In this document: piece by piece, positions 39,148 through 53,379 of the stretch
How the letters are laid out: the number at the start of each line of letters is the position of its first letter
Numbering within the stretch: position 1 is the first letter of the stretch
Source: Flexithrix dorotheae DSM 6795
Lineage (GTDB): Bacteria > Bacteroidota > Bacteroidia > Cytophagales > Flammeovirgaceae
NCBI RefSeq assembly: GCF_000379765.1
Contig: NZ_KB903454.1
Span: forward strand, 62,001 to 126,000
Direction: 5' to 3'
DNA length: 64,000 bases
Program-made: the position numbers and the translations under genes
Notes under the pieces: model-generated
Seen by the model: only the letters and a program-made list of their open reading frames with translations
What the model was told of the DNA's origin: nothing
The model's database searches: none

Positions 39148-42100
39148 TTATCGCATCAAATACATTTTTCCAAACCCATTTTTAAACATATCATCTTTGG
39201 AAGTTTCCCGATGCTCAATTTCCTGTCCGTTTGACCTCACAAAAACCCGATATAAATAAACACCATTGGCCAATTGATCACCAAACTCATCCCTTCCATC
39301 CCATGCATATTCGGTGCGATTATTTCCAATACGAATGGTACCAATCTCATCCTGTGTAATTTCACGCACAACTCTTCCCGTTACGGTCATAATCTGGATT
39401 TTCAATTCATCGGGAATTTCCGCTCCGGTGAGTGTAAAGACAAATTGCACATGGTCGGAAAATGGATTAGGATATGGATAAAAATGCGTCACCTTTGATT
39501 CATTTTCTACCTCAAAGCTTATTCTGTAAGGAGCCAGTCCTGAAGCATTTCCACTTTTATCTGATCCTTTTACCATCAGGGTATATTTTCCATCAGGTAA
39601 TTTATCAGGCTGATAATACACCTGAAAATCATTGTTATTCACCCTCGTCCAATTGACATTTGGACTATTAAATTCAATTTTTCTAAAATCACAACTGTCA
39701 CAATTACTCATGAAAATTTCCAAACCAACAGTATCTTCTCTTACCAGAAATTTATTTTCATCTTTCAGGCTTATGGTAATTAGTGGAGTTGGAGAAACCA
39801 GCTCACCATTCATAATATGTACCCCATCGAAAACAACATCAAGAATTGGATTAGTACTATCCTTATTGACTTTAAATTTGGTTTCAAGAATATTGTTTTC
39901 ATAAATCTGCTCTTTCAAAACCCTGGGATTAACATAAACATTTAGTTTGTTTAAACCTACCCATTCAATACTTCCAAGATCTACAGATATAGGTATAGAG
40001 CCTTTTGCCGGCAGATTAGAAAGTGTATCGTAAAATTCAAGCTGTTTGTTGGTTGATTCATTTTGCAAAGCATATCTCACCACAAGATTTTCCTTAAAGT
40101 CAGTTTGAGTCACATTTTCAAATTTGTATTTAAAATTAATGGAATCACCTTCCTCAATTTCGGGAATGGTAGTTTGTGCTAAAACCGTATCATAAAATAA
40201 TATACCTTCCGGAACTTCCTCATAGAGTACTTTCCAATCGTGCAATTGAGCAGGTGTTTTGCTTGTTGTATCTGAAGTAAATGCCTGAAGTTTTAGATAA
40301 GGGTAAGTATTGGCATCAATCATGGAAATATCCGTATTTTCCGCTTTAATATTTGATAATACAGTGGATTCTTCCCCTTGTAAACTTATGCCTATTACAT
40401 CTACAAACCAGTCATCCTCAGTCGCATTCTCTTCCTTAATATTCAAATAAATAGATCCCCAATTTTCCGCAGGCCCGATTCTGGGGGTAAGTACATTTCC
40501 TTCAATGGCATCAAAATCAATAGTGAATTCTCCCGAAATCAACTGGGCATTAGAAGGAGTGGCTGAAGTATATCTGGGATAAATTTCTGTAGCAGTTCCG
40601 GGAGCAGCCCCTTTTCTTCCAAAGGCAATAAAAGGATCACCATTTTTTAAAGTGGATTTCATAGTTTCCACATCAATGCCCATTTCCGCAAACCCTGCAA
40701 AATTTTCATCGGAATAATCTTCATACCTCAATTTTCCCGCTGAAAAAATCACCACATAATCTCCCTCCTTTATGAAGCTCATATAAAAGGTCATGAAATT
40801 ATAATTCCTTAAATCATTGTCTAACAGTCTATATGCGTCTCCCCGGTCTCCATAACCACATTTCAAGTGTGGATAAACCGGAATGGAATAAGGTTTTCCA
40901 GAAAACTGATCTATGGCATAAGTAACCAGATTATTAATAGCACAAATTCCCTGGCCCACAGAAAGAAAATCATTTACATATAGGTGATAATTAGCTGGAT
41001 CCGCATTCTCATCGCCTACTGCCTGTACTTTCAATACCATTTCTTCTCTTTTAAATTCCCATTTTTTATTGGAATTATTGAGCTCAAGATTTTCAATTTT
41101 ATTTTTTTCAAACTGAGGAAATTCGCTTTGAGACCAGCCTTCAGGAGAATCTTTAATATAGGTAAAAGAACTTTCAGCCCAACTTTCATCCTCACTGGTA
41201 TCACTATATTTTACCCGCCAGAAATACACTGTGGAATCATTGGTTTGTCCCGATAATAAATCGGTTTCCCATTCCGAAGTAACACCAGCAAAAACAAGCG
41301 TATCCTTCAATACAGGACTATTGAATTGCGCAGCAGTATCAATTTGAAATTGATAAAACCTATCTGGAGTTAAAGGATCATTATTTTGGGCAAATAAACT
41401 AACCTTTTCTTCCTTCACTATACTAAACTCTCTGGGAGTAATGATAATCATATTCGTTTTAGGCAGGAATAAATTAAGTTGTCCGAAATTATTGCTTTCA
41501 TCCAACTCATCAATTTCTCCACTGGCATCAATAACTACCTCAAAAGTACTGTTTCCTCCAGAAACAAGTTTGTCTTCCTTTGTGACGGGAATAGTAAAAT
41601 AAATGGTATCCTGATAAGAAATTGGGGGAACACGAATAGGATCATAAAACCGAAATGATCCATCATTAAAATTTCGTTTCACTTCAATATTAAATGAATC
41701 CTTATCTACAGTTCCAAAATTGGAAATCACAATTCCGATTTTAAAGGAATCAGTCTGTACTGTAAGTTCTTCAGTTTCATCAAATTTTTGGATAAATAAT
41801 TTATCATCAGCAATGTGATAATCAGGTTTTTCAATGGGATAAAGCCTGATAGCCGGATCACCCGAATAAACAAATTGTTGGGCATTTGACCAGTCTCTTT
41901 CACTGTGTGCTCTGAGTTCCACATAATCCTTAATGGCTTCCTGTAAAACCACACCAATAGGTTTGTTGTAAAGGAGCTTATTGGTAAAAGCCCTATCAAA
42001 AAACTTTTTAGCATATTCTGCCTGTGTATCGGCAAATGCAAGATAACTATGTGCTAAAAAACCAATTGCTCCTTTTTCAGGGGTTAGGATCCAATCTTCT

Positions 42101-44205
42101 CCCACAGATCTGGTTCTGGCAAATACATTTCCTATATCACAACCCATCATGAACATAAATGGATACTTTCCTTTGTTCTCAAAGCCCCTTATGGGGTCAC
42201 TGGCATATCCAAACTCCAAATCAGCCGCAACAATTGAAGAATGTCCAAATGAAGTTACGATTCCAATTCCAGCATTTATTTCATCTGAAATATCGATAAA
42301 TTCCGTGTGACCGGTTGTTCCTTTTTGGATAATCTCCCCTTTTGCTCCAATAAAATCACCCTCCACCTTCGATTTAAATTCCAGGGTATGGAACTTGAGC
42401 AGATTATGTTCCTGAACCGTTTTACCTCCACTTAAAAACAATGCATTTTTTTTCCACAAATCATTGAACTCAAAACTTTCGTGCTCTTTTACCTTGTTCA
42501 GGTAATCCAAAACTTGTTGTGGGGTATTGGCGGATAATCTCCCTGTAGGAATAGCTGGCTCATAAATGCTTCCTTTCAGTCCTGAAGTCAGCATGTTATC
42601 AGAACATGGTTCTCCAAAACAGGGAACAAGGTTTTTATAGGTCCAAGAATTACTTGCAGGTTTGTTTTTTTCATAATTATAATTGATGGCCAACCCTTTT
42701 CCTACAATAAAGAAAAACTCGGGATTCCCGTTATTCAAAAGATATTCCGCAAACCTTCTTATGGCCAGGGGTGTAACTTCTCCGAAAGTAAACTGATTAT
42801 AAATATTCTGAATATCAGCAATATACACCTGATAACCTCCCCCTTCTGTTGAAGCCCTGTAATTTGCATATTCAAGAACAGGGTCATCAGAACCGTTTGC
42901 CGATTTCATTAATGCAGGATGGGAAATTATAAAATAATTAGCGGCAGTATTAATTCTGGAAATATTGGTAAGTCCAATAGTATCAATACTATAAATTTCA
43001 TCAGTGAGTAGTAACCTGGCATTTTTCCCGGTTCCAGAAATAACTGAAGTAAAGGTATTGGAACCATCCAGTGTTCCTAAAATTTCTTTTTTATCTTCAA
43101 CAGAAGTGATATCAAATAACCTATGGTTGGCTGGAACATTTTCAATTTCTACTTTTATCTGACTCTCATCATCTCTGGGCACATTGAATACTTTTTGTAC
43201 AGCCCCATCTGCATTAATTTCTTGTGGGTAAATTAATTTAATATAGGATAATGAAACAATTTCATTGTAATTGGTGGTGAGTTGTTCAATTTGATAAGAA
43301 ACAACTAATGAATCATCAATTGTGGGTAAATCAGAAAAATTTAAGGTAGTCGACAACACACTATTGTCATAATAGGAAAAGTTTAATGTGCCCAATTCTC
43401 GCTGGCTTCCTAAATCTTTTCCCGCATATATTTTCACCTGATGGACCGTATTGGATCGTCCAGTCATTTTTACCTCAAGCGTAGGATTTGGGCCTGAAGC
43501 ATACAGATTCTTAATTGGAATTTTATAATCTTTTTTGGTAGTACCTCCAGCATACAGATCGGTAAAACCTTTCCCTTCATCAAATCCGGAAAGTAATGCT
43601 CCTTCATTTGAAATGGATTGAAAAAATTTAGGATATAATCTGCCACTGGAAAAATACCTTTCTATTTTGTTGTACCCAAAATCAGTGGTAAAATGGATTA
43701 CTTCTTCCTGTAGGTGATAGGATTTAGCCACCAAACCAGGATCGGTCTCATTATTAACTTTAATTCTTTTGCCTAAAGATTCATCAAGGGTATAGGTTAG
43801 AAAACAAAAAGTCTGATTGCTATACATGCTGGCAAATGGATCAGTCTGGCTGATTGGATCAGGATAAAATTCAGTATCTAACCATCCATCGTTTTTTGTT
43901 CCATAAAACTCAATATAATCACCAGGATTAAAAACGCCATCAGCCTCTCCGGCAATGAAAATGGGTTGTTCTTTTCCCCGGAAAAAAAGCTGAATATGTT
44001 GTGGATTTACTGTATTGACCGGAAAGCCTCCGTTTTGAAGTTCCTCAAATGAAACCCTGAAAATCCCTTCTCTGCTCACCCCGATTTTATAATATTGCTG
44101 ATCATAATTAATCCACTCATTTTCAATCACCTGTGCAAAGGAAAAAGGAGAAAAAAATAAAGGAATTAAGTATAAAAAAAGTAAGATAAATCTATTGGTT
44201 CCCAT
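39148..44205 (-). CDS. porU: Type IX secretion system sortase PorU-like (long form)
   Basis: 1685 aa with signal peptide (residues 1-24). A gingipain-type C25 peptidase domain spans ~410-760. The catalytic His655 (TSFGHSS) and Cys689 (MMGCDIGNVF) are intact. After ~800 residues of beta-sandwich modules comes a C-terminal FlgD-like/T9SS-like module (YPNPFSDHVQFVFTL, GDQLANGVYLYRVF). PorU removes the sorting domain of T9SS cargo and links it to the cell-surface anchor. It is longer than the ~1100-1300 aa of classical PorU; the long form is known in Cytophagales as PorU2, a name I give from memory. It overlaps the porV stop by 14 bases, so both are one operon. Confidence 0.88.
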   Translation of the reverse strand: MGTNRFILLFLYLIPLFFSPFSFAQVIENEWINYDQQYYKIGVSREGIFRVSFEELQNGGFPVNTVNPQHIQLFFRGKEQPIFIAGEADGVFNPGDYIEFYGTKNDGWLDTEFYPDPISQTDPFASMYSNQTFCFLTYTLDESLGKRIKVNNETDPGLVAKSYHLQEEVIHFTTDFGYNKIERYFSSGRLYPKFFQSISNEGALLSGFDEGKGFTDLYAGGTTKKDYKIPIKNLYASGPNPTLEVKMTGRSNTVHQVKIYAGKDLGSQRELGTLNFSYYDNSVLSTTLNFSDLPTIDDSLVVSYQIEQLTTNYNEIVSLSYIKLIYPQEINADGAVQKVFNVPRDDESQIKVEIENVPANHRLFDITSVEDKKEILGTLDGSNTFTSVISGTGKNARLLLTDEIYSIDTIGLTNISRINTAANYFIISHPALMKSANGSDDPVLEYANYRASTEGGGYQVYIADIQNIYNQFTFGEVTPLAIRRFAEYLLNNGNPEFFFIVGKGLAINYNYEKNKPASNSWTYKNLVPCFGEPCSDNMLTSGLKGSIYEPAIPTGRLSANTPQQVLDYLNKVKEHESFEFNDLWKKNALFLSGGKTVQEHNLLKFHTLEFKSKVEGDFIGAKGEIIQKGTTGHTEFIDISDEINAGIGIVTSFGHSSIVAADLEFGYASDPIRGFENKGKYPFMFMMGCDIGNVFARTRSVGEDWILTPEKGAIGFLAHSYLAFADTQAEYAKKFFDRAFTNKLLYNKPIGVVLQEAIKDYVELRAHSERDWSNAQQFVYSGDPAIRLYPIEKPDYHIADDKLFIQKFDETEELTVQTDSFKIGIVISNFGTVDKDSFNIEVKRNFNDGSFRFYDPIRVPPISYQDTIYFTIPVTKEDKLVSGGNSTFEVVIDASGEIDELDESNNFGQLNLFLPKTNMIIITPREFSIVKEEKVSLFAQNNDPLTPDRFYQFQIDTAAQFNSPVLKDTLVFAGVTSEWETDLLSGQTNDSTVYFWRVKYSDTSEDESWAESSFTYIKDSPEGWSQSEFPQFEKNKIENLELNNSNKKWEFKREEMVLKVQAVGDENADPANYHLYVNDFLSVGQGICAINNLVTYAIDQFSGKPYSIPVYPHLKCGYGDRGDAYRLLDNDLRNYNFMTFYMSFIKEGDYVVIFSAGKLRYEDYSDENFAGFAEMGIDVETMKSTLKNGDPFIAFGRKGAAPGTATEIYPRYTSATPSNAQLISGEFTIDFDAIEGNVLTPRIGPAENWGSIYLNIKEENATEDDWFVDVIGISLQGEESTVLSNIKAENTDISMIDANTYPYLKLQAFTSDTTSKTPAQLHDWKVLYEEVPEGILFYDTVLAQTTIPEIEEGDSINFKYKFENVTQTDFKENLVVRYALQNESTNKQLEFYDTLSNLPAKGSIPISVDLGSIEWVGLNKLNVYVNPRVLKEQIYENNILETKFKVNKDSTNPILDVVFDGVHIMNGELVSPTPLITISLKDENKFLVREDTVGLEIFMSNCDSCDFRKIEFNSPNVNWTRVNNNDFQVYYQPDKLPDGKYTLMVKGSDKSGNASGLAPYRISFEVENESKVTHFYPYPNPFSDHVQFVFTLTGAEIPDELKIQIMTVTGRVVREITQDEIGTIRIGNNRTEYAWDGRDEFGDQLANGVYLYRVFVRSNGQEIEHRETSKDDMFKNGFGKMYLMR

Positions 44206-45301
44206 AAATATATCTTGGCTTGGTATTCTTAGATTTGCCCAGGCCTACAATAAGTGAAAAAATGTTAGAATATAGGCCTTCAGACTGATCACCAATATCA
44301 GTTAAGGCATAATCAATTTTAAACTGCTTTATCTTTATTCCCACTCCAAAATTGGGTTGGAAAGTCCAGTAAGTTCCTCCCTTGAAATCTTTTATTTCCT
44401 GAAACCCGGCTACCCCTCCCCTTAAAAACACAATTTTTTTAAAATCTAACTCCATTCCCAAATGTGGGTCAATAGAAAACATGGAAGTCTTTATGAGTGT
44501 ATTTCTGGCGCCATCGAATGTAATATCTACACCTGTTGTAACTAAAGCACCAAAATTTTCTTTTACCCTGGTGCCATAGGCGACATCGGCAATTACCCTG
44601 GGCAGGGTAATTTCAATAGAATTATCGGGAATGGTATTACCAGTTTTAGCGAACACATCGTAAAAAGTTTCAGGATTGTAATTCCAGGTATTATAGGTCC
44701 CGGTAATATCTCTGCCAACCAGTCCAAACTGCCAGTTTCCTCTTTTAAGTTGGGCCCCTATATCCAAGCCAAAGCCCCAGGCATTGGCGAAAACTCCAAC
44801 TGACCTGTAAATTATTTTGAAATTAGCCCCAAGGTTTAGTCCCTTGATCAGCTTTGACCTTCTTGCATAGGAAAACAAAAAACCATAATCTGCGGCAGAG
44901 AAAGAATTAATATTGTCATAATTGAGATTGCCATCTGCATCATACAAAAACCTGGTATCGGGAATATCGTCAGTGGCAAACCTGATGAGAGAAAGGCCAA
45001 TTCGACTTCTGCTATCGATCGGGGTAGCAAATCCAAAATAATCGTAATTGGAAATTCCCGCAAAATATGAAGCATGCATTAACCCAAAAGCATATTTTTC
45101 CTTTACATTAAGTAAACCAGCGGGATTCCAATACCCGGAAGTCACATCATCTGTCACTGCAGCCTGGCTATTTGACATGGCCAATCCTCTAGCTCCTACC
45201 CCAATTGCCATAAACTCATTACTGTACTTTGGAGCATTTTGAGCATGAAGGCTGGAAATGACCGCCAATTGAAAGATTATAAAAAATATTTTTAATTTCA
45301 T
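44192..45301 (-). CDS. porV: Type IX secretion outer-membrane protein PorV-like
   Basis: 369 aa. Signal peptide (residues 1-20), then a FadL-like beta barrel with the family opening FMAIGVGARGLAMSNSQAAVTDDVTSGYWNPAGL. The end is a strand-rich FSLIVGLG region. PorV is the shuttle that delivers T9SS cargo to PorU at the outer membrane. It is the first gene of the porV-porU operon. A PorV2 paralogue is possible, because the partner is a long-form PorU. Other T9SS genes (gldK-N, sprA, porX/Y) are not in the window. A 430-base non-coding stretch precedes it. Confidence 0.88.
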   Translation of the reverse strand: MKLKIFFIIFQLAVISSLHAQNAPKYSNEFMAIGVGARGLAMSNSQAAVTDDVTSGYWNPAGLLNVKEKYAFGLMHASYFAGISNYDYFGFATPIDSRSRIGLSLIRFATDDIPDTRFLYDADGNLNYDNINSFSAADYGFLFSYARRSKLIKGLNLGANFKIIYRSVGVFANAWGFGLDIGAQLKRGNWQFGLVGRDITGTYNTWNYNPETFYDVFAKTGNTIPDNSIEITLPRVIADVAYGTRVKENFGALVTTGVDITFDGARNTLIKTSMFSIDPHLGMELDFKKIVFLRGGVAGFQEIKDFKGGTYWTFQPNFGVGIKIKQFKIDYALTDIGDQSEGLYSNIFSLIVGLGKSKNTKPRYIYGNQ

Positions 45302-45731: not shown

Positions 45732-46187
45732 CTAGCTGGAGTGATCGGCAATAATTACCCATTCTCCTTTTATTTTCTTCCAGGTTAGGGAAAAATGCCC
45801 TTCTGCATCTCCAATTTCACGGGTGAGATGGAATTTTCCTACAATAAATATCACTTTTTTATCGAGCTTTTCTGAAGAAATTATTTCAAACTTTAGCTTT
45901 CCCATGGTTTCGGTATCAGGATAATTCTTTTTATACCTTTCCAAAGTGGCCTGGTAACCATAAATCACTCCTTTACTTCCAATGAATTTTAACTTATCCG
46001 AAGGCCAATAACCCACCATAAATTTATCAATATCACCATTATTCCAGTCCTGGGTTTGTCTTTTAAGTATATTTAATACCTGATCAATATCTTTATCTGA
46101 CTGACCATTTGTAGTTAAACTTATGGCAAAAAATAAAACTATTATTGATAAAAATTTTGAATAAAATAGCATAGTGTTTTTTTTCAA
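45732..46187 (-). CDS. Exported NTF2-like / DUF4440 protein
   Basis: 151 aa with a signal peptide (LSIIVLFFAISLTTNGQ); a second ATG at 46172 is an alternative start. The mature part is a single NTF2-like fold: helix (DIDQVLNILKRQTQDWNNGDIDKFMVGYW), KLKFIGSKGVIYGYQATLERYKKNYPD, and closing strands (FHLTREIGDAEGHFSLTWKKIKGEWVIIADHSS). Such proteins bind or isomerise small molecules, or only form a scaffold; the job here is unknown. It is the only gene on its transcript as far as the sequence shows. Confidence 0.82.
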   Translation of the reverse strand: MKKNTMLFYSKFLSIIVLFFAISLTTNGQSDKDIDQVLNILKRQTQDWNNGDIDKFMVGYWPSDKLKFIGSKGVIYGYQATLERYKKNYPDTETMGKLKFEIISSEKLDKKVIFIVGKFHLTREIGDAEGHFSLTWKKIKGEWVIIADHSS

Positions 46188-46465: not shown

Positions 46466-48727
46466 ATGCGTAATTCATTTTTATTCTTACTTGCAATTAC
46501 TATTTCTCATTTTTTTCCGATTTCTCAAACTTTCTCCCAGGATAAAGTTGAAATTACCGGGATAGTAATTGACGAAAATGGCAAAACTGTTCCGGATGTA
46601 AAAATTTCAATTAACGAAAACAGCTATGTAACTTCCGATGCTGCCGGAGTTTTCTCCACTGAAATATCCTCCAGTAAAATAGATGAAATTGAAGCTTTTA
46701 AACGGGGGTTCGAAATGTTCAGCTGGGGCAAATTGAAGGGGGATAATTTTAAGATTGAAATTAAATTGAAACCAGTAGATTTTAATCTTATTGGGAAAGT
46801 TTTTGATGAAAATGAAGAATTACTGGCAAATGCGGATATTGTTTTAAATCCTGATGATCCACAATTAAAGGCCAAATCAAATAGTAAAGGTGTATTTTCT
46901 TTTAAAGTTCCGGCATTTATCAGAGTAGATGAAACCAGTAAGTTTTCCGTAAATGGGAAATTATTAGAGCCTGAAGGGGTGGAATTTCAGAAAAAAGGAG
47001 GGCTACTTCATTTGACACTTCCGGTACCCTACCAGACCATTGTAATTTACGATAAAGACAACAATAAACTCACCCATACAAGTTTCACCATCAATGGTAA
47101 AGAATATGAAACAAACGACCAGGGGGAATATAAATTAAGAATAAGAGAGGTAGAAAAACAACAATATGCCATTAATGGACATGAGGTAATAAGCTCAAAG
47201 CACCTTCCGGGTGATAACCATTATTTATTATACTTTTCTAATATAAAAGAGGAGAAAGAAGAGCTTTCCAATGTAGAATATCCCGAAGGGTCTGATGAAA
47301 TTGTGGAAGAAGTAGAGGTTGAAGATGATAAAATTGACCTGGAAAAGATAACTGAGTATGATAAAGACATCAACATTATCATTAACGACCTGGAATTGGA
47401 AAAACAGAGGTTGTTGCAGAAAAGCACTGAAATTCGAACTCAGATGGAATTAGTTGCTGAAAAGATGGGAGAAGAATCGGAATTGACGGATGAAGAAAAA
47501 AAACATCTTACAGAAACTATGACCTCTCTTGAAACTCAATTAATTGAAAACGATCTTGCTTATGAGGATGCTCAGGTGAAAACCAAAGAAATAATTGACA
47601 AAATGAAATTTGTAATTATTGAAAAAGATTCGGTTAATCATGCTGTAGAAGAACAAATTGAAGTAATAGCCACTGAAAAAAAACAGGTAGAAGAAGAACT
47701 AGAAAGAGATTTTATAATTTTCTCAGTAGTCGCCATTTCCCTATTAATAGTTGCACTCATTTTATTTGGTTCCGGAAAAAGAATTAAAAAGAAAAACAAT
47801 GAATTATTTAAACTAAATACTGAGTTAAGCCAAACTAAGGACGACCTTCTGGAAAAGGTGCAGGAAATTAATCAGCAGAAAGAAGAAATTGCAGTACAAG
47901 CAGAAAACCTGCAGGAACTAAATAGAGATGTTACAATAAAGAACAAAAAAATTACAGACAGTATCAGATATGCCAAATCGGTTCAGGAGGCCGTATTACC
48001 TTCATTAAATCTTTTAGATTCCTTCTTAAGCAATTATTTTATTACCTATTTACCAAAGGACATTGTTTCGGGAGATTTTTACTGGTTTACCAAAGTACCC
48101 CCTCACAATGGAGAAGGAGAAAAAATATTGATTGCCGCTGTGGACTGTACAGGGCATGGGGTATCCGGAGCATTTATGTCAATGGTGGGAAATACCTTGC
48201 TTGAAGAGATTGTAAATCAGATGAAAATTTATGATACTTCAGAAATATTGGAGCATCTCAATAAAAGAATTATTGAAGGCCTAAGGCAAAATGAAACTAC
48301 TAATAGAGACGGAATGGATATTTGTATTTGCAGCCTGGAAAAACTAACCACTGGAAATACTAAAGTAACATTTACCGGAGCAAAAAGGCCATTATTTATA
48401 CATAGAAATAATGAGAAAATAGTGGAAACCCTTGCTGGTGACAGAAGATCAATTGCCGGACGACAACCCAAAGTGAGTATTGAATTTTCCAAACAGGAAA
48501 TTGAATTATCTCCAAAGGATGTTATTTACTTAACTACTGATGGATTGGTAGATCAAAATAATGAGAACAGAAAACGTTTTGGAACCAACAGACTTAAAGA
48601 TTTTATACTTGAGAATTCTGGTTTCGATAAGGATACCCAGAAGAAAAATCTTGAGCAAAAATTAAAAGAATATCAGGGAAAAACTGAACAAAGAGATGAT
48701 ATTCTTGTTATTGGAATTACAGTATAA
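46466..48727 (+). CDS. SpoIIE-type PP2C phosphatase with periplasmic beta-sandwich sensor
   Basis: 753 aa. Signal peptide (1-25), then three tandem carboxypeptidase-regulatory/CNA-B-like domains: ~28-110 (GIVIDENGKTVPDVKISI), ~112-190 (GKVFDENEELLANADIVL), ~192-255 (VIYDKDNNKLTHTSFTI). An acidic coiled coil (~285-415), a single membrane helix (~416-436), a second coiled coil (~440-505) and a cytoplasmic SpoIIE phosphatase (~515-753: DIVSGDFYWF, VDCTGHGVSGAFMS, LTTDGLVDQ, QRDDILVIGI) follow. Metal-binding Asp residues are in place. It resembles a one-piece receptor that turns an extracytoplasmic signal into dephosphorylation, probably of an anti-sigma antagonist. The sandwich sensor is unusual for this family. 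Confidence 0.88.
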   Translation: MRNSFLFLLAITISHFFPISQTFSQDKVEITGIVIDENGKTVPDVKISINENSYVTSDAAGVFSTEISSSKIDEIEAFKRGFEMFSWGKLKGDNFKIEIKLKPVDFNLIGKVFDENEELLANADIVLNPDDPQLKAKSNSKGVFSFKVPAFIRVDETSKFSVNGKLLEPEGVEFQKKGGLLHLTLPVPYQTIVIYDKDNNKLTHTSFTINGKEYETNDQGEYKLRIREVEKQQYAINGHEVISSKHLPGDNHYLLYFSNIKEEKEELSNVEYPEGSDEIVEEVEVEDDKIDLEKITEYDKDINIIINDLELEKQRLLQKSTEIRTQMELVAEKMGEESELTDEEKKHLTETMTSLETQLIENDLAYEDAQVKTKEIIDKMKFVIIEKDSVNHAVEEQIEVIATEKKQVEEELERDFIIFSVVAISLLIVALILFGSGKRIKKKNNELFKLNTELSQTKDDLLEKVQEINQQKEEIAVQAENLQELNRDVTIKNKKITDSIRYAKSVQEAVLPSLNLLDSFLSNYFITYLPKDIVSGDFYWFTKVPPHNGEGEKILIAAVDCTGHGVSGAFMSMVGNTLLEEIVNQMKIYDTSEILEHLNKRIIEGLRQNETTNRDGMDICICSLEKLTTGNTKVTFTGAKRPLFIHRNNEKIVETLAGDRRSIAGRQPKVSIEFSKQEIELSPKDVIYLTTDGLVDQNNENRKRFGTNRLKDFILENSGFDKDTQKKNLEQKLKEYQGKTEQRDDILVIGITV

Positions 48728-49089: not shown

Positions 49090-52000
49090 TTATTTAATCA
49101 ACCTGACCTTTTGCCTGAATTGAATTTCATTAGTGGAAATATGGAGCATGTAAAGTCCACTTTCCAATGATTCCAAATCCATGAACTGATTACTTTTATT
49201 GAAACTTTCAATTTGCTTTTCTAAAAGAATTTTTCCTTCAAGGTTAAATAAATGTATACTAGCCTTGCCCTTTATATAAGTTGGAAAAAGGAAATTTACT
49301 TTTCCAATAGAAGGATTAGGAAAAACAATTATATCTTCATTTTCAGGCCTTTCCAGACCAGTTGTCACAGGCTCATCTTCAGCAAACACCATTACTTCAC
49401 GGGTAATTTGATGTCTACAATCAAGGGAATCGGTAAATTCAAGTGAAATAGATAATTCCCCACTCTCAGCAATCACCAAAACAGGGTTTTGTACATTACT
49501 TGTATCCCCATTTCCAAATTCCCAATTCCAATCAGAACCGTTGGGTCCACGTAAATACAAGGTGAGATCCTCAGCAATTTCAAGCGAATCAGGAATAATA
49601 TCCAAAACCGTAGAGTAATCAGGTCTGAATACGGTAACAGCCCTTGGCAGAGTCTCTTCAACAGAATCAATGTTAGTGATGAAAACCTTCGTCACATTTG
49701 ATTTAGGGATAAAAGAAAATGCACCACCTTCAAACCCTAGGCTGTCCAATGACTCATTGAAATAAAACCTGAAATTTTCTCCACCCGATGGCATCAGTTT
49801 AATACTATCTCCGGGACAAACGTTTTGGAATTGATCAATTTTCGGGAGTCCGGCATTCCCATAAACTATAATTTCACTTTCCAGAAAAGTGGAACAACCC
49901 AGTGAATCCACAAAATTTACTGATATGAGATAAATCCCTGCAGAATCATATTGATGGTTTACCAAAGTGTCATCAGAAACTTCAGTACCATCCCCGAAAT
50001 CCCATGAAATGGATTGATAATGATTTGGCAGATTCCCAAGTCCATATTCGTAAACATCCTTTTCAATAACTAAAGAAGGAATCTTTAAAGCAACAAAAAT
50101 TTGATTAATATTAATGGTATGGCTGATGTAAGTACTATCCGGAGCTGAAATATCTTTATACAAAAGAATTGTATCCTGTTCAATTGCCGGAATCGTAAGA
50201 CTTTTTCCCTGGAACAAGGTATCTTGAAAACTATTATCAGAAAACACCCAAAAATCACTACTGTCTGGTAGGGAAATCACCATGTTGGCTCCTTCACATA
50301 AAATAGTATCTTTCAAAACAGGCCTTCCTTCTACTCCACTCACCTGAATTTGTTTCTGTACTAATTTCTCACAGCCGAGGCTATCCTCTAATGTCAGAGT
50401 AATAGTGAATGCGCCATTTTTCTCATATTTATAATTTGGAAATTCATCAAAAATCAAATTTTCGCTATCTCCAAAGTTCCAGGAAAACTTTTGTACACCA
50501 GACCCAAAATCGGGAATTGGACTTAAAAAAGCAGTTTCATTATAATCTATAGAAGAAACTACTTCAAAATCTCCGGGAATACTGTCATTAATGATAAATG
50601 AAACTTCAAGAGGATCACTTTCCAAAATTTTATCGGCATTAGTGATGAAAATTTTATTTCCGGAATAACCTGATCCAAGCAAAATAGAATCTCCTTCTCC
50701 TATTTCATTAGACAGTGATTCATCCGCATAAAATTTAAAATAGTCACCTCCTTCTGGAAAAAATGATGGTATTTCATTAAAGCAAAAAGAGGTATCCTGA
50801 ATTTCAGGAATTTCCCCTTTTAATCCTTCAAAATCAAGCTTTTGAGCAGCGAATACAAAACCCTGCCTTAATTCTTCTATACTTTCCCCAGCCAGCAAAA
50901 TGTAAGTTAATTTCCGTTCATCACCGGGATTTAGGCGAATGTTATTTAAACCTGTAATATTAGCCACATCCCCACCGGAAATACCACCCGCCTCCGGATT
51001 TTGGATCTCCTGATTTAAAGAATTTATTTGTTCTGAAGTTGAAAACCCGTCTTCTAGATTAATTTCATCAATTTCTCCAGGGAGATTAAAAGCATAATAA
51101 CCAAAAGATTCATCCAATATTTTTACCCCTACAAAGTAGTTATTATCCAAATCTTCTATAATGCCAAAATTGAATACAGAATCCCAATTTGCAGTTTGCT
51201 TTGAATCAGGCTCACCCCAATTAATAAACAAACCCACATGAAGGGAATCAATTAATTCAGAACTATTATTTTCTAAGGTGTAACTCAAAGCCAAAAAATT
51301 GAGACTATCTCCTGTTCCCCAGGATTTAAAGTTTTGTTTAATCTCCAGGCCAAGTACAGTATCTTCATCATAAAAAACACCCTCAATTCCTTTATATTCC
51401 AGACTATCAGCTGCATAGATTAATTCAAATTTTGTTTCGAAATCATTCTGAAAGTTTCCTATTTCTCCATTAAAATTGGCCAGACTATTAACAGAATCAA
51501 CTACCAATACCAATCCAGCTTCTTCAATTAATTTTTGGTTTTTCCATCTAATTCCTAAACCGGTTCTAACTGAATCTTCCACTTTCCAGCCCAGCTGTCC
51601 ATTTTGGCCAATTGTAAGTCTAAAATCCCCTAATCGGGCATTAAACAAATCATCTGTGTTTAATTCAAAATACTGATAATCCTGGTACAAGGAATCCTCA
51701 AGTGATAGTTTAAAGAAGATTTGTTTATTTGCCGGCAAATCATTTTTGAACAATACCTGAAATGGAGAATTTTCATTGTCAATAGAATCCCCTGTGGTCA
51801 GAGCGCCTATGGAAAATTCATCGGAAATTATTTCTACAAACTCGGAAGGGCTCGATAAAGTCACTTTACAATTGGAAGTAGTTGGTTCCAATATACTTTT
51901 GTATTGTGCCCAAATGTTCATGGTATCTTCTCTGATAATGGCATTACCCACAAATCCTTCGGTAGTTATATTTTCCACAAATATTGATTTGTGGTCATTC

Positions 52001-53379
52001 TTCTCTGTTAGGGCCCGATAAACATTTAAAAGTCCTTTGCCCAACCGATCTGTAAATGCACTATTTCCCGGAACATCATAAATTACATCATCTGTAGTAG
52101 CCTTAATCAGGTCAACACATTGTTTCGCAGAAAGATCGGGAAACTCGCTACGAATTAGTCCCAAAGCTCCAGCTACAAAGGGTGAAGCATAGGAAGAACC
52201 AGATACGATTTTGTGCCCCTCCATTCCGGACGAAATGGAAGTTGTTGGCATATAAGCACCCGGAGCCATGACATCAATATAATAACTATAAGTTCCCGGA
52301 CTTACACGCACATTACTTGTATCCAGTGAGTGAATCACAGACAAAACATTGCGGTAAGAAGCCGGATAAAAATCTAATTGATTAGAAGTATTTCCCGCTG
52401 CTGCCACAATAGCCACATCCAGCACTTCTACTATATAATTCATTACTTCCTCCTCAAATTTTGATGGCCCTCCAGTCGGTCTTCCCCAGGATAAATTGAT
52501 AATATCGCATCCATTTTCGGCTGCATAAAAAGCCGCCTGATAAGCATTAATCAGATAACCTGCACTATTGGCAATCTTTACTGGCATGAACCTGCAATTA
52601 TACCCTACTCCGAAAGTTCCAAAACTATCATTCACTTTTGCCGATGCCACTCCGGCTACTTCAGTTCCATGACCAAATACATCAGAGACATCGGTATCAA
52701 AATCACCAAAATCATAACCCAGGGAATCATCAATAAAGCCATTTCCATCATCATCAACACCCCCTATACCATATCTTTCCAAATCATTAAAATACAATTG
52801 ATCTCTTAAACTTTGATGAGTGGTTTTTACACCAGTATCCACGATTCCAATTACAATATTGGTATCTCCCTGGGAAATGTCCCATGCTTCATAAACTCCC
52901 GTATGCTCATGCCCCCAATGCAATTCAAGGTAGGTTGTATCATTAGGGACGAATAACAATTCATTATAAAAGGAAGGTTCTGCATACTCCACCCAGTTTT
53001 CATTATTCAAATCCTTTAATAGCCCATTAATATCACTTCCTTCAGCAACTTTAATTTGGTAAAAATTCCCAATAGCCGACCGTTTTTCAGCGCTATTATT
53101 TAGGGAAATATCTCCAGAATTACCCAAACTTTTAAGTTTTGCCTCCCTCTTTTTATTTGCAGGAAAAATCTGCTGATAACTTTTTATCCCAGGTTTATTT
53201 AAATATTCATCCAATTGATAGCTCCCTGATAATAATTGAGCTTCCTGATTTTTTTCAAAAAAAGATGCATCCACCTTCACAATTATTTCATCTTTTCTAA
53301 TAAAGGTTTTTTCATTTTCCTGAGCATAAGAAAAGATTGGGCTAAAGGCAAAAACAAGGATGTAGTAAAGATTCTTCAT
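49090..53379 (-). CDS. Large S8 (subtilisin) protease with PKD domains and T9SS sorting tail
   Basis: 1429 aa. Signal peptide (1-19), propeptide (~20-140), S8 domain (~145-465) with D181 (IVDTGVKT), H237 (GHGTEVAG), oxyanion Asn330 (AAAGN) and Ser396 (GSSYASP). After linker domains come three PKD-type domains (SWNFGDSENL, SWDFGDGTEV, NWEFGNGDTS) alternating with Ig-like segments. The end (VFPNPSIGKVNFLFP...GLYMLHI) is a T9SS type-A sorting domain. It should be exported by T9SS and anchored at the surface as a degradative enzyme. PorU/PorV encoded nearby would process it (inference). Confidence 0.93.
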   Translation of the reverse strand: MKNLYYILVFAFSPIFSYAQENEKTFIRKDEIIVKVDASFFEKNQEAQLLSGSYQLDEYLNKPGIKSYQQIFPANKKREAKLKSLGNSGDISLNNSAEKRSAIGNFYQIKVAEGSDINGLLKDLNNENWVEYAEPSFYNELLFVPNDTTYLELHWGHEHTGVYEAWDISQGDTNIVIGIVDTGVKTTHQSLRDQLYFNDLERYGIGGVDDDGNGFIDDSLGYDFGDFDTDVSDVFGHGTEVAGVASAKVNDSFGTFGVGYNCRFMPVKIANSAGYLINAYQAAFYAAENGCDIINLSWGRPTGGPSKFEEEVMNYIVEVLDVAIVAAAGNTSNQLDFYPASYRNVLSVIHSLDTSNVRVSPGTYSYYIDVMAPGAYMPTTSISSGMEGHKIVSGSSYASPFVAGALGLIRSEFPDLSAKQCVDLIKATTDDVIYDVPGNSAFTDRLGKGLLNVYRALTEKNDHKSIFVENITTEGFVGNAIIREDTMNIWAQYKSILEPTTSNCKVTLSSPSEFVEIISDEFSIGALTTGDSIDNENSPFQVLFKNDLPANKQIFFKLSLEDSLYQDYQYFELNTDDLFNARLGDFRLTIGQNGQLGWKVEDSVRTGLGIRWKNQKLIEEAGLVLVVDSVNSLANFNGEIGNFQNDFETKFELIYAADSLEYKGIEGVFYDEDTVLGLEIKQNFKSWGTGDSLNFLALSYTLENNSSELIDSLHVGLFINWGEPDSKQTANWDSVFNFGIIEDLDNNYFVGVKILDESFGYYAFNLPGEIDEINLEDGFSTSEQINSLNQEIQNPEAGGISGGDVANITGLNNIRLNPGDERKLTYILLAGESIEELRQGFVFAAQKLDFEGLKGEIPEIQDTSFCFNEIPSFFPEGGDYFKFYADESLSNEIGEGDSILLGSGYSGNKIFITNADKILESDPLEVSFIINDSIPGDFEVVSSIDYNETAFLSPIPDFGSGVQKFSWNFGDSENLIFDEFPNYKYEKNGAFTITLTLEDSLGCEKLVQKQIQVSGVEGRPVLKDTILCEGANMVISLPDSSDFWVFSDNSFQDTLFQGKSLTIPAIEQDTILLYKDISAPDSTYISHTININQIFVALKIPSLVIEKDVYEYGLGNLPNHYQSISWDFGDGTEVSDDTLVNHQYDSAGIYLISVNFVDSLGCSTFLESEIIVYGNAGLPKIDQFQNVCPGDSIKLMPSGGENFRFYFNESLDSLGFEGGAFSFIPKSNVTKVFITNIDSVEETLPRAVTVFRPDYSTVLDIIPDSLEIAEDLTLYLRGPNGSDWNWEFGNGDTSNVQNPVLVIAESGELSISLEFTDSLDCRHQITREVMVFAEDEPVTTGLERPENEDIIVFPNPSIGKVNFLFPTYIKGKASIHLFNLEGKILLEKQIESFNKSNQFMDLESLESGLYMLHISTNEIQFRQKVRLIK

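Follow-up and report, generated by a model that had tools for sequence, protein, structure and literature searches.

The window analysed here, a 64,000-nucleotide stretch of the Flexithrix dorotheae DSM 6795 genome, carries on its forward strand a gene for a 753-residue receptor-like protein that ends in a SpoIIE phosphatase domain. The features referred to below are listed with their positions in the window (CRD, carboxypeptidase-regulatory-like domain).

39148-44205, minus strand: porU (Peptidase_C25)
44192-45301, minus strand: porV (Pfam PorV match below cut-off)
45732-46187, minus strand: DUF4440 gene, a neighbour
46466-48727, plus strand: CRD-array, helical-linker, transmembrane and SpoIIE phosphatase gene, 753 aa (open reading frame with ATG start; Pfam; orthologue in the genus)
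46466-46537, plus strand: signal peptide, residues 1-24 (hydrophobic N-terminus, judged from the sequence itself rather than by a signal-peptide predictor)
46538-46774, plus strand: beta domain 1, residues 25-103, transthyretin/CRD-like (PF13620 at 1.2e-5 for the cut piece; fold match to SusC NTE)
46775-47014, plus strand: beta domain 2, residues 104-183, CRD-like (PF13620 at 3.9e-4 for the cut piece, about residues 103-183; AlphaFold2 strands)
47015-47233, plus strand: beta domain 3, residues 184-256, CRD-like by homology (AlphaFold2 strands; homologous segments match PF13620)
47234-47338, plus strand: acidic low-confidence linker, about residues 257-291 (low pLDDT blocks, about 31-42)
47339-47710, plus strand: periplasmic helices, residues 292-335 and 342-415, common to the kinase-type relatives (AlphaFold2; hhalign of profiles A2 and A5)
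47711-47773, plus strand: single transmembrane helix, residues 416-436 (hydropathy)
47774-47995, plus strand: cytoplasmic helix or coiled-coil linker, residues 437-510 (AlphaFold2 helix 439-510; coiled coil inferred)
48005-48724, plus strand: PP2C/SpoIIE phosphatase domain, residues 514-753 (PF07228; fold match to 6k4e; aligned motifs)

An orthologue in the same genus (L054) is 83% identical to the window protein, and the 64-kb window gave no Rfam matches. A first-pass annotation of the locus had described beta domains on the outside of the cell, one membrane helix and a coiled coil leading into SpoIIE. The open reading frame, Pfam, AlphaFold2 and hydropathy bear out this order of parts, the helical portion being larger than stated there (linker at about 257-291; helices at 292-335, 342-415 and 439-510). 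Besides the signal peptide there is one hydrophobic segment, with a Kyte-Doolittle maximum of 3.19 at the averaging interval starting at residue 416. Because basic residues follow the membrane helix, the positive-inside rule would place the beta array in the periplasm, which in a Gram-negative cell is what "outside" has to mean.

The N-terminal part (residues 28-260) is not one unrelated domain, since both domain search and structure prediction give consecutive beta domains. Over the whole window protein, PF13620 (CarboxypepD_reg) scores 41.8 bits against a cut-off of 32.3, in two stretches. The AlphaFold2 fragment model, built on a three-row alignment (window, L097 and L113), shows the consecutive domains with block pLDDT values of 70-95 over residues 25-224, falling after residue 224; in the full model the same three of the 29 alignment rows cover the N-terminal part. 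Domain 1 in this model has the transthyretin/CRD fold, its best match being the N-terminal extension (NTE) of SusC (9hfj; Z 10.1, 2.2 A, 77 residues), followed by the transthyretin-like domain of carboxypeptidase D (3mn8; Z 9.5, 2.3 A, 73 residues), and the SusC NTE is also matched by profile (8.9e-5). The match of domain 2 to the C-terminal part of the usher FimD is weak (Z 6.4 over 72 residues). Pilins of the CNA-B type account for several longer matches, at large rmsd, and the CNA-B likeness mentioned in the first-pass annotation comes from such fold matches alone. The fold search rows span model residues 1-162, so that domain 3 lies outside the comparison. Cut out on its own (residues 184-260), domain 3 of the window protein has no CRD match; five of six homologous segments match PF13620 weakly (E 0.003-0.03). 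The triple beta-sandwich proposed earlier thus stands for two clear CRD domains, the third being weaker and matching PF13620 only in homologues.

The phosphatase domain belongs to the SpoIIE/PPM (PP2C) family by profile, fold and aspartate motifs. PF07228 matches residues 552-752 (E 4.3e-22, 79.4 bits against a cut-off of 25), and a fold search with the whole model, which returned the phosphatase part only, gave Pseudomonas aeruginosa SiaA (6k4e; Z 33.1, 1.7 A, 242 residues, 32% identity) and SpoIIE (5ucg; Z 21.4). The SGD, DCTGHG, TDG and RDD motifs align with 6k4e, and D537, D560, D692, D744 and D745, which we take to be metal ligands, are invariant in alignment A3. The NCBIfam SiaA model (NF038263) scores 185.6 bits against an equivalog cut-off of 700, its match being confined to residues 452-751, and the protein is therefore not assigned to SiaA.

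The likely target class of this phosphatase is STAS proteins. A partner of this kind had been suggested as a check, and the genome does encode short STAS proteins (at loci on C5, C2 and C1) and HATPase_c_2 proteins, including one adjacent pair (C5:20906-21625) beside another SpoIIE gene, with none of them tied to the window phosphatase. Two own-genome loci are worth recording: HATPase_c_2, STAS and a diverged SpoIIE gene lie consecutively on one strand as a partner-switch unit (L258:5889-8722, on C5), and several clustered STAS and HATPase_c_2 genes resemble a stressosome locus (L259:5479-9447, on C7).

The porV, porU and DUF4440 genes recur beside the gene only in its genus (2/2 genomes). Adjacency to porU/porV was considered as a functional link and rejected as weak; these genes are absent around L055, L056, L069 and L070. 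Just downstream, at 49090-53379 on the minus strand, the window encodes a type A cargo of the type IX secretion system (T9SS), namely a subtilase that carries PKD domains and a Por_Secre_tail.

The F. dorotheae genome has 18 SpoIIE genes (19 rows, two of which are one gene), and the sensor module occurs in three of them, on contigs C25 (the window), C1 and C2. The N-terminal part was found in 17 of the 18 genomes of the taxonomic family and the sensor module in 71/241 genomes and 39/103 genera of the order, the output domain having been checked for part of the matches. The layout had been called an unusual one, which holds within this genome and fails across the order; common as the architecture is, a description of it was not found in the literature searched.

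For comparison with other genes, 78 sensor genes were assembled from the fetched loci with a recognised output, three of 81 rows being dropped for want of a recognised output domain; L097 and L243 are the same gene, hence the 78 include at least one duplicate. A genome scan with A1 (SpoIIE peptides) returned mostly other SpoIIE proteins, which were then used as controls. The majority of the 78 end in SpoIIE and 11 end in a histidine-kinase domain (by profile); Pfam found HisKA-HATPase_c in all eight scanned kinase-type genes in or beside the set. Comparison of the kinase-type profile A5 with the SpoIIE-type profile A2 gave an hhalign probability of 99.9% (E 1.8e-33, 305 columns), the homology spanning the beta domains and the periplasmic helices. 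In a narrow search of 295 genomes at class level, A5 retrieved the window gene at 9.6e-34 and matched in 4/295 genomes, all of the same order. The window protein, with its homologous CRD array and periplasmic helices, thus belongs to this sensor family, and judged from these profile alignments one sensor module serves two outputs, a SpoIIE phosphatase or a histidine kinase.

Further variants concern the parts around the module. A GAF domain is inserted before SpoIIE in L058, L066, L068 and L097, and in L061 and L072 the sensor is fused behind TPR, a PD40 propeller and a further CRD (in L113 behind TPR and CRD); L265-L268 have the same kind of fusion by profile. At L202:1940-5612 and at L190:7956-11352, the gene after a CRD-sensor histidine kinase has a response-regulator-like start and SpoIIE (by profile), as if the outputs were chained. 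A cNMP-binding histidine kinase and a response regulator lie immediately upstream of one relative of the window gene (L055:4598-6454). The CRD-SpoIIE gene at L065:8088-10222 consists of two overlapping open reading frames, a frameshift of either the gene or the assembly.

The surroundings of these relatives differ from those of other SpoIIE genes. A gene was counted as linked if a PorP or a TPR/propeller gene lay no more than 6 kb away on its strand, or if it was fused to one. By this measure 15 of 78 sensor genes are linked, against 3/102 SpoIIE genes lacking the module (p 6e-4), and PorP alone accompanies 8/78 against 0/102 (Fisher p 0.001), in tests that count genes as independent regardless of kinship and use controls drawn from genomes other than those of the sensor set. 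Iteration of a TPR-PD40 profile made it pick up ordinary TPR proteins (24/81 vs 17/102), and a stricter propeller-only profile was used instead. The remaining 63 sensor genes, including that of the window, have neither PorP nor a propeller gene in the 6 kb around them.

Among the linked genes is a paralogue in the same genome (L070:99-8439, on C2), the last gene of an operon that comprises a CHU_C (type B) cargo with Ig repeats, PorP_SprF, a TPR-PD40 protein and CRD-SpoIIE; the window gene has nothing of this kind within 6 kb. All four components (cargo, PorP, TPR-PD40 and sensor) are likewise present at L067 and L065, PorP, TPR-PD40 and sensor at L062, and a CHU_C cargo, a PorP-OmpA fusion and CRD-SpoIIE at L235, while a PD40(-OmpA) protein lies upstream in L206, L211 and L212 (in the last by profile only). 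Kinase-type operons of families f16 and f19 contain a cargo of about 560 to 3,200 aa, PorP, TPR-PD40 and a CRD-kinase. Among 19 distinct kinase-type genes (24 rows collapsed by genome), 13 have a propeller gene and 10 a PorP gene on the same strand within 15 kb of extended flanks, and six are unlinked. Both outputs show such linkage, which recurs in five families (f1, f15, f16, f19 and f20), and gene order and fusions thus tie the sensor module genetically to surface anchoring by type IX secretion. As to the reverse frequency, the 15 PorP genes of the F. dorotheae genome have a CHU_C gene nearby in 12 cases, a propeller gene in five and a CRD sensor in one (same strand, 6 kb). Two histidine kinase genes of this genome without a match to the module profile (L248:5166-6800 and L256:956-2083) are located less than 1 kb from PorP on the same strand, beside CHU_C cargo.

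The earlier proposal of a link to the envelope or to T9SS survives in this altered form, through relatives that lie in or are fused to type B cargo, PorP and PorE-like units, and not through the porU/porV neighbours. For the window copy itself a T9SS ligand is a tentative extrapolation from the family and somewhat doubtful.

In a tree of SpoIIE domains, the separate genes L062, L067, L070 and L059 and the fused L061, L072 and L113 form one clade (SH-aLRT 99), with L113 the close sister of L072. The tree was made by a quick method with every third control locus (33/102 control genes) and without L065, whose phosphatase is split, and many of its deep forks are open. That split and fused forms share this clade is, in our view, the strongest hint that the CRD array works beside the TPR/propeller protein. 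L059, inside the linked clade, has a possible cargo remnant and neither a PorP nor a propeller gene, in a fragmentary genome. The clade of the window gene (window, L054 and L056) is separate from the linked clade, the deep forks between being poorly supported, and the linked state requires five changes on the tree, of which the starred branches force at least two.

The propeller proteins next to sensors also differ from other PorE-like proteins in their wall anchor. An OmpA domain was found in three of 14 scanned sensor-linked propeller proteins (L065, L206 and L211), against four of five PorE-like proteins at PorP loci of the F. dorotheae genome that have no sensor; six sensor-linked propeller genes (L212, L226/L263, L227, L270, L273 and L275) are left out of this count. 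By Pfam, OmpA is absent from L062, L067, L070, L228, L229, L234, L262, L269, L271, L272 and L274; the propeller of L234 was seen by our own profile and not by Pfam at 1e-3. Judged from these domain counts, many linked systems appear to have the membrane sensor in the position that the peptidoglycan-binding OmpA domain takes in PorE, and the retention of OmpA in L065, L206 and L211 counts against such a replacement.

The reading we favour, with slightly better than even confidence, is that the protein senses a periplasmic protein and controls its partner-switch phosphatase by way of a coiled-coil linker, in a family that reads PorE-like proteins under PorP/SprF. It would be an inner-membrane receptor phosphatase whose two or three CRD/transthyretin-like domains and helical stretch most likely bind a protein rather than a small molecule in the periplasm. 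Binding would alter helix packing, and the change would travel along the membrane helix to the coiled coil in the cytoplasm, thereby changing dimerisation and activity of the PP2C domain, which would then dephosphorylate a STAS-type anti-anti-sigma partner. We infer that physical contact underlies the linkage and that the signal runs inward: the sensors of the family would read PorE-like TPR/beta-propeller proteins hanging beneath the PorP/SprF barrels that carry type B (CHU_C) T9SS surface proteins. With the sensor in the place of OmpA, the surface protein would be wired to a kinase or phosphatase and not to the cell wall; the window copy, if its ligand is of the same kind, would have its surface partner supplied in trans. 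The complex of type B cargo, PorP and PorE has been published as an anchor (PMC9143113, available part). For RsbU, the accessible text of PMC12143880 reports that PPM domains are activated through dimerising coiled-coil linkers, and suggests that kinases which share the sensors are switched in this way too, a model that a sensor module with both outputs fits.

The large unlinked fraction of sensor genes would suit a different arrangement, in which the CRD array is a stand-alone envelope sensor with peptidoglycan, a glycan or a small molecule as its ligand, and the linked relatives are a later recruitment; the five changes on the tree, at least two of them forced, also allow recruitment to be secondary. 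The recurrence of linkage with both outputs and in five families speaks against it, as does the kind of fold: to our knowledge, the matched CRD/TTR folds (SusC NTE, carboxypeptidase, pilin CNA-B) are not glycan-binding modules. We consider this arrangement unlikely. Still less probable is that the array touches an outer-membrane transporter, as the N-terminal extension domains of SusC may do, and reports nutrient uptake; SusC NTE is the best fold match of domain 1 and matches by profile, but CRD folds are widespread and an unsystematic look noticed no linked transporter gene. Equally improbable is a general stress or biofilm phosphatase of the SiaA/RsbU kind with an N-terminal part that mainly holds the dimer. 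The PP2C domain is indeed closest to SiaA in fold, identity and score; the score is, however, far below the SiaA cut-off, and the periplasmic module has been kept with either output, phosphatase or kinase, which is what one would expect if it is a sensor.

Taken with the operons and fusions, our favoured reading of a protein-sensing receptor phosphatase would extend to a signalling class, which we hold to be about as probable as its absence: a T9SS type B surface protein, a PorP barrel and a PorE-like protein coupled to a CRD sensor with interchangeable output, often replacing the peptidoglycan anchor, the window protein being a member with its partner encoded elsewhere. If so, PorP/PorE-like clusters would gain a role in signalling besides anchoring, and these bacteria may monitor from within the cell what condition their surface proteins are in. 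How Bacteroidota sense contact or assembly of their secreted surface fibres is a question that the anchor-kinase and anchor-phosphatase operons and fusions would make directly testable. In the literature searched, which was mainly open-access and without preprints, no paper connected cargo/PorP/PorE-like gene sets with kinases or phosphatases that have a CRD sensor, and within the same scope a search pairing "carboxypeptidase regulatory" with "SpoIIE" returned nothing. A term search of the main text of PMC12635249 found no SpoIIE, histidine kinase or PorE.

Among known phosphatases, SiaA resembles the window protein in the PP2C domain, its motifs and the preceding helix, and differs in the sensor part. 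Proteins of the RsbU/RsbP type, as far as described in the available text of PMC12143880, share the helical linker into PP2C and a sensor exchangeable with those of histidine kinases, to which the window protein adds a periplasmic CRD array and a membrane helix. PorE consists of TPR, a propeller, a CRD and an OmpA-like peptidoglycan-binding domain (PMC9143113, available part). The CRD is common to PorE and the window protein, and the fused relatives hold TPR, beta-propeller and CRD in the order of PorE, whereas TPR, propeller and OmpA are all missing from the window protein (Pfam, E up to 10), which ends in a phosphatase and is therefore not a PorE. The operons that anchor type B CTD cargo by PorP/SprF and PorE, as presented in the accessible parts of PMC9143113 and PMC12618676, have the same gene set as is found around the linked relatives, which add a membrane sensor kinase or phosphatase and in which most scanned PorE-like partners lack OmpA. 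The closest precedent in signalling is the route from PorA to PorXY-SigP in Porphyromonas gingivalis, for which signalling by a T9SS surface protein to an inner-membrane sensor has been proposed; according to the available part of that study (PMC7712824), the surface protein and the PorY kinase should be connected by additional factors. The connection between surface and kinase, unexplained in that part of the PorA work, may here be one operon or one polypeptide.
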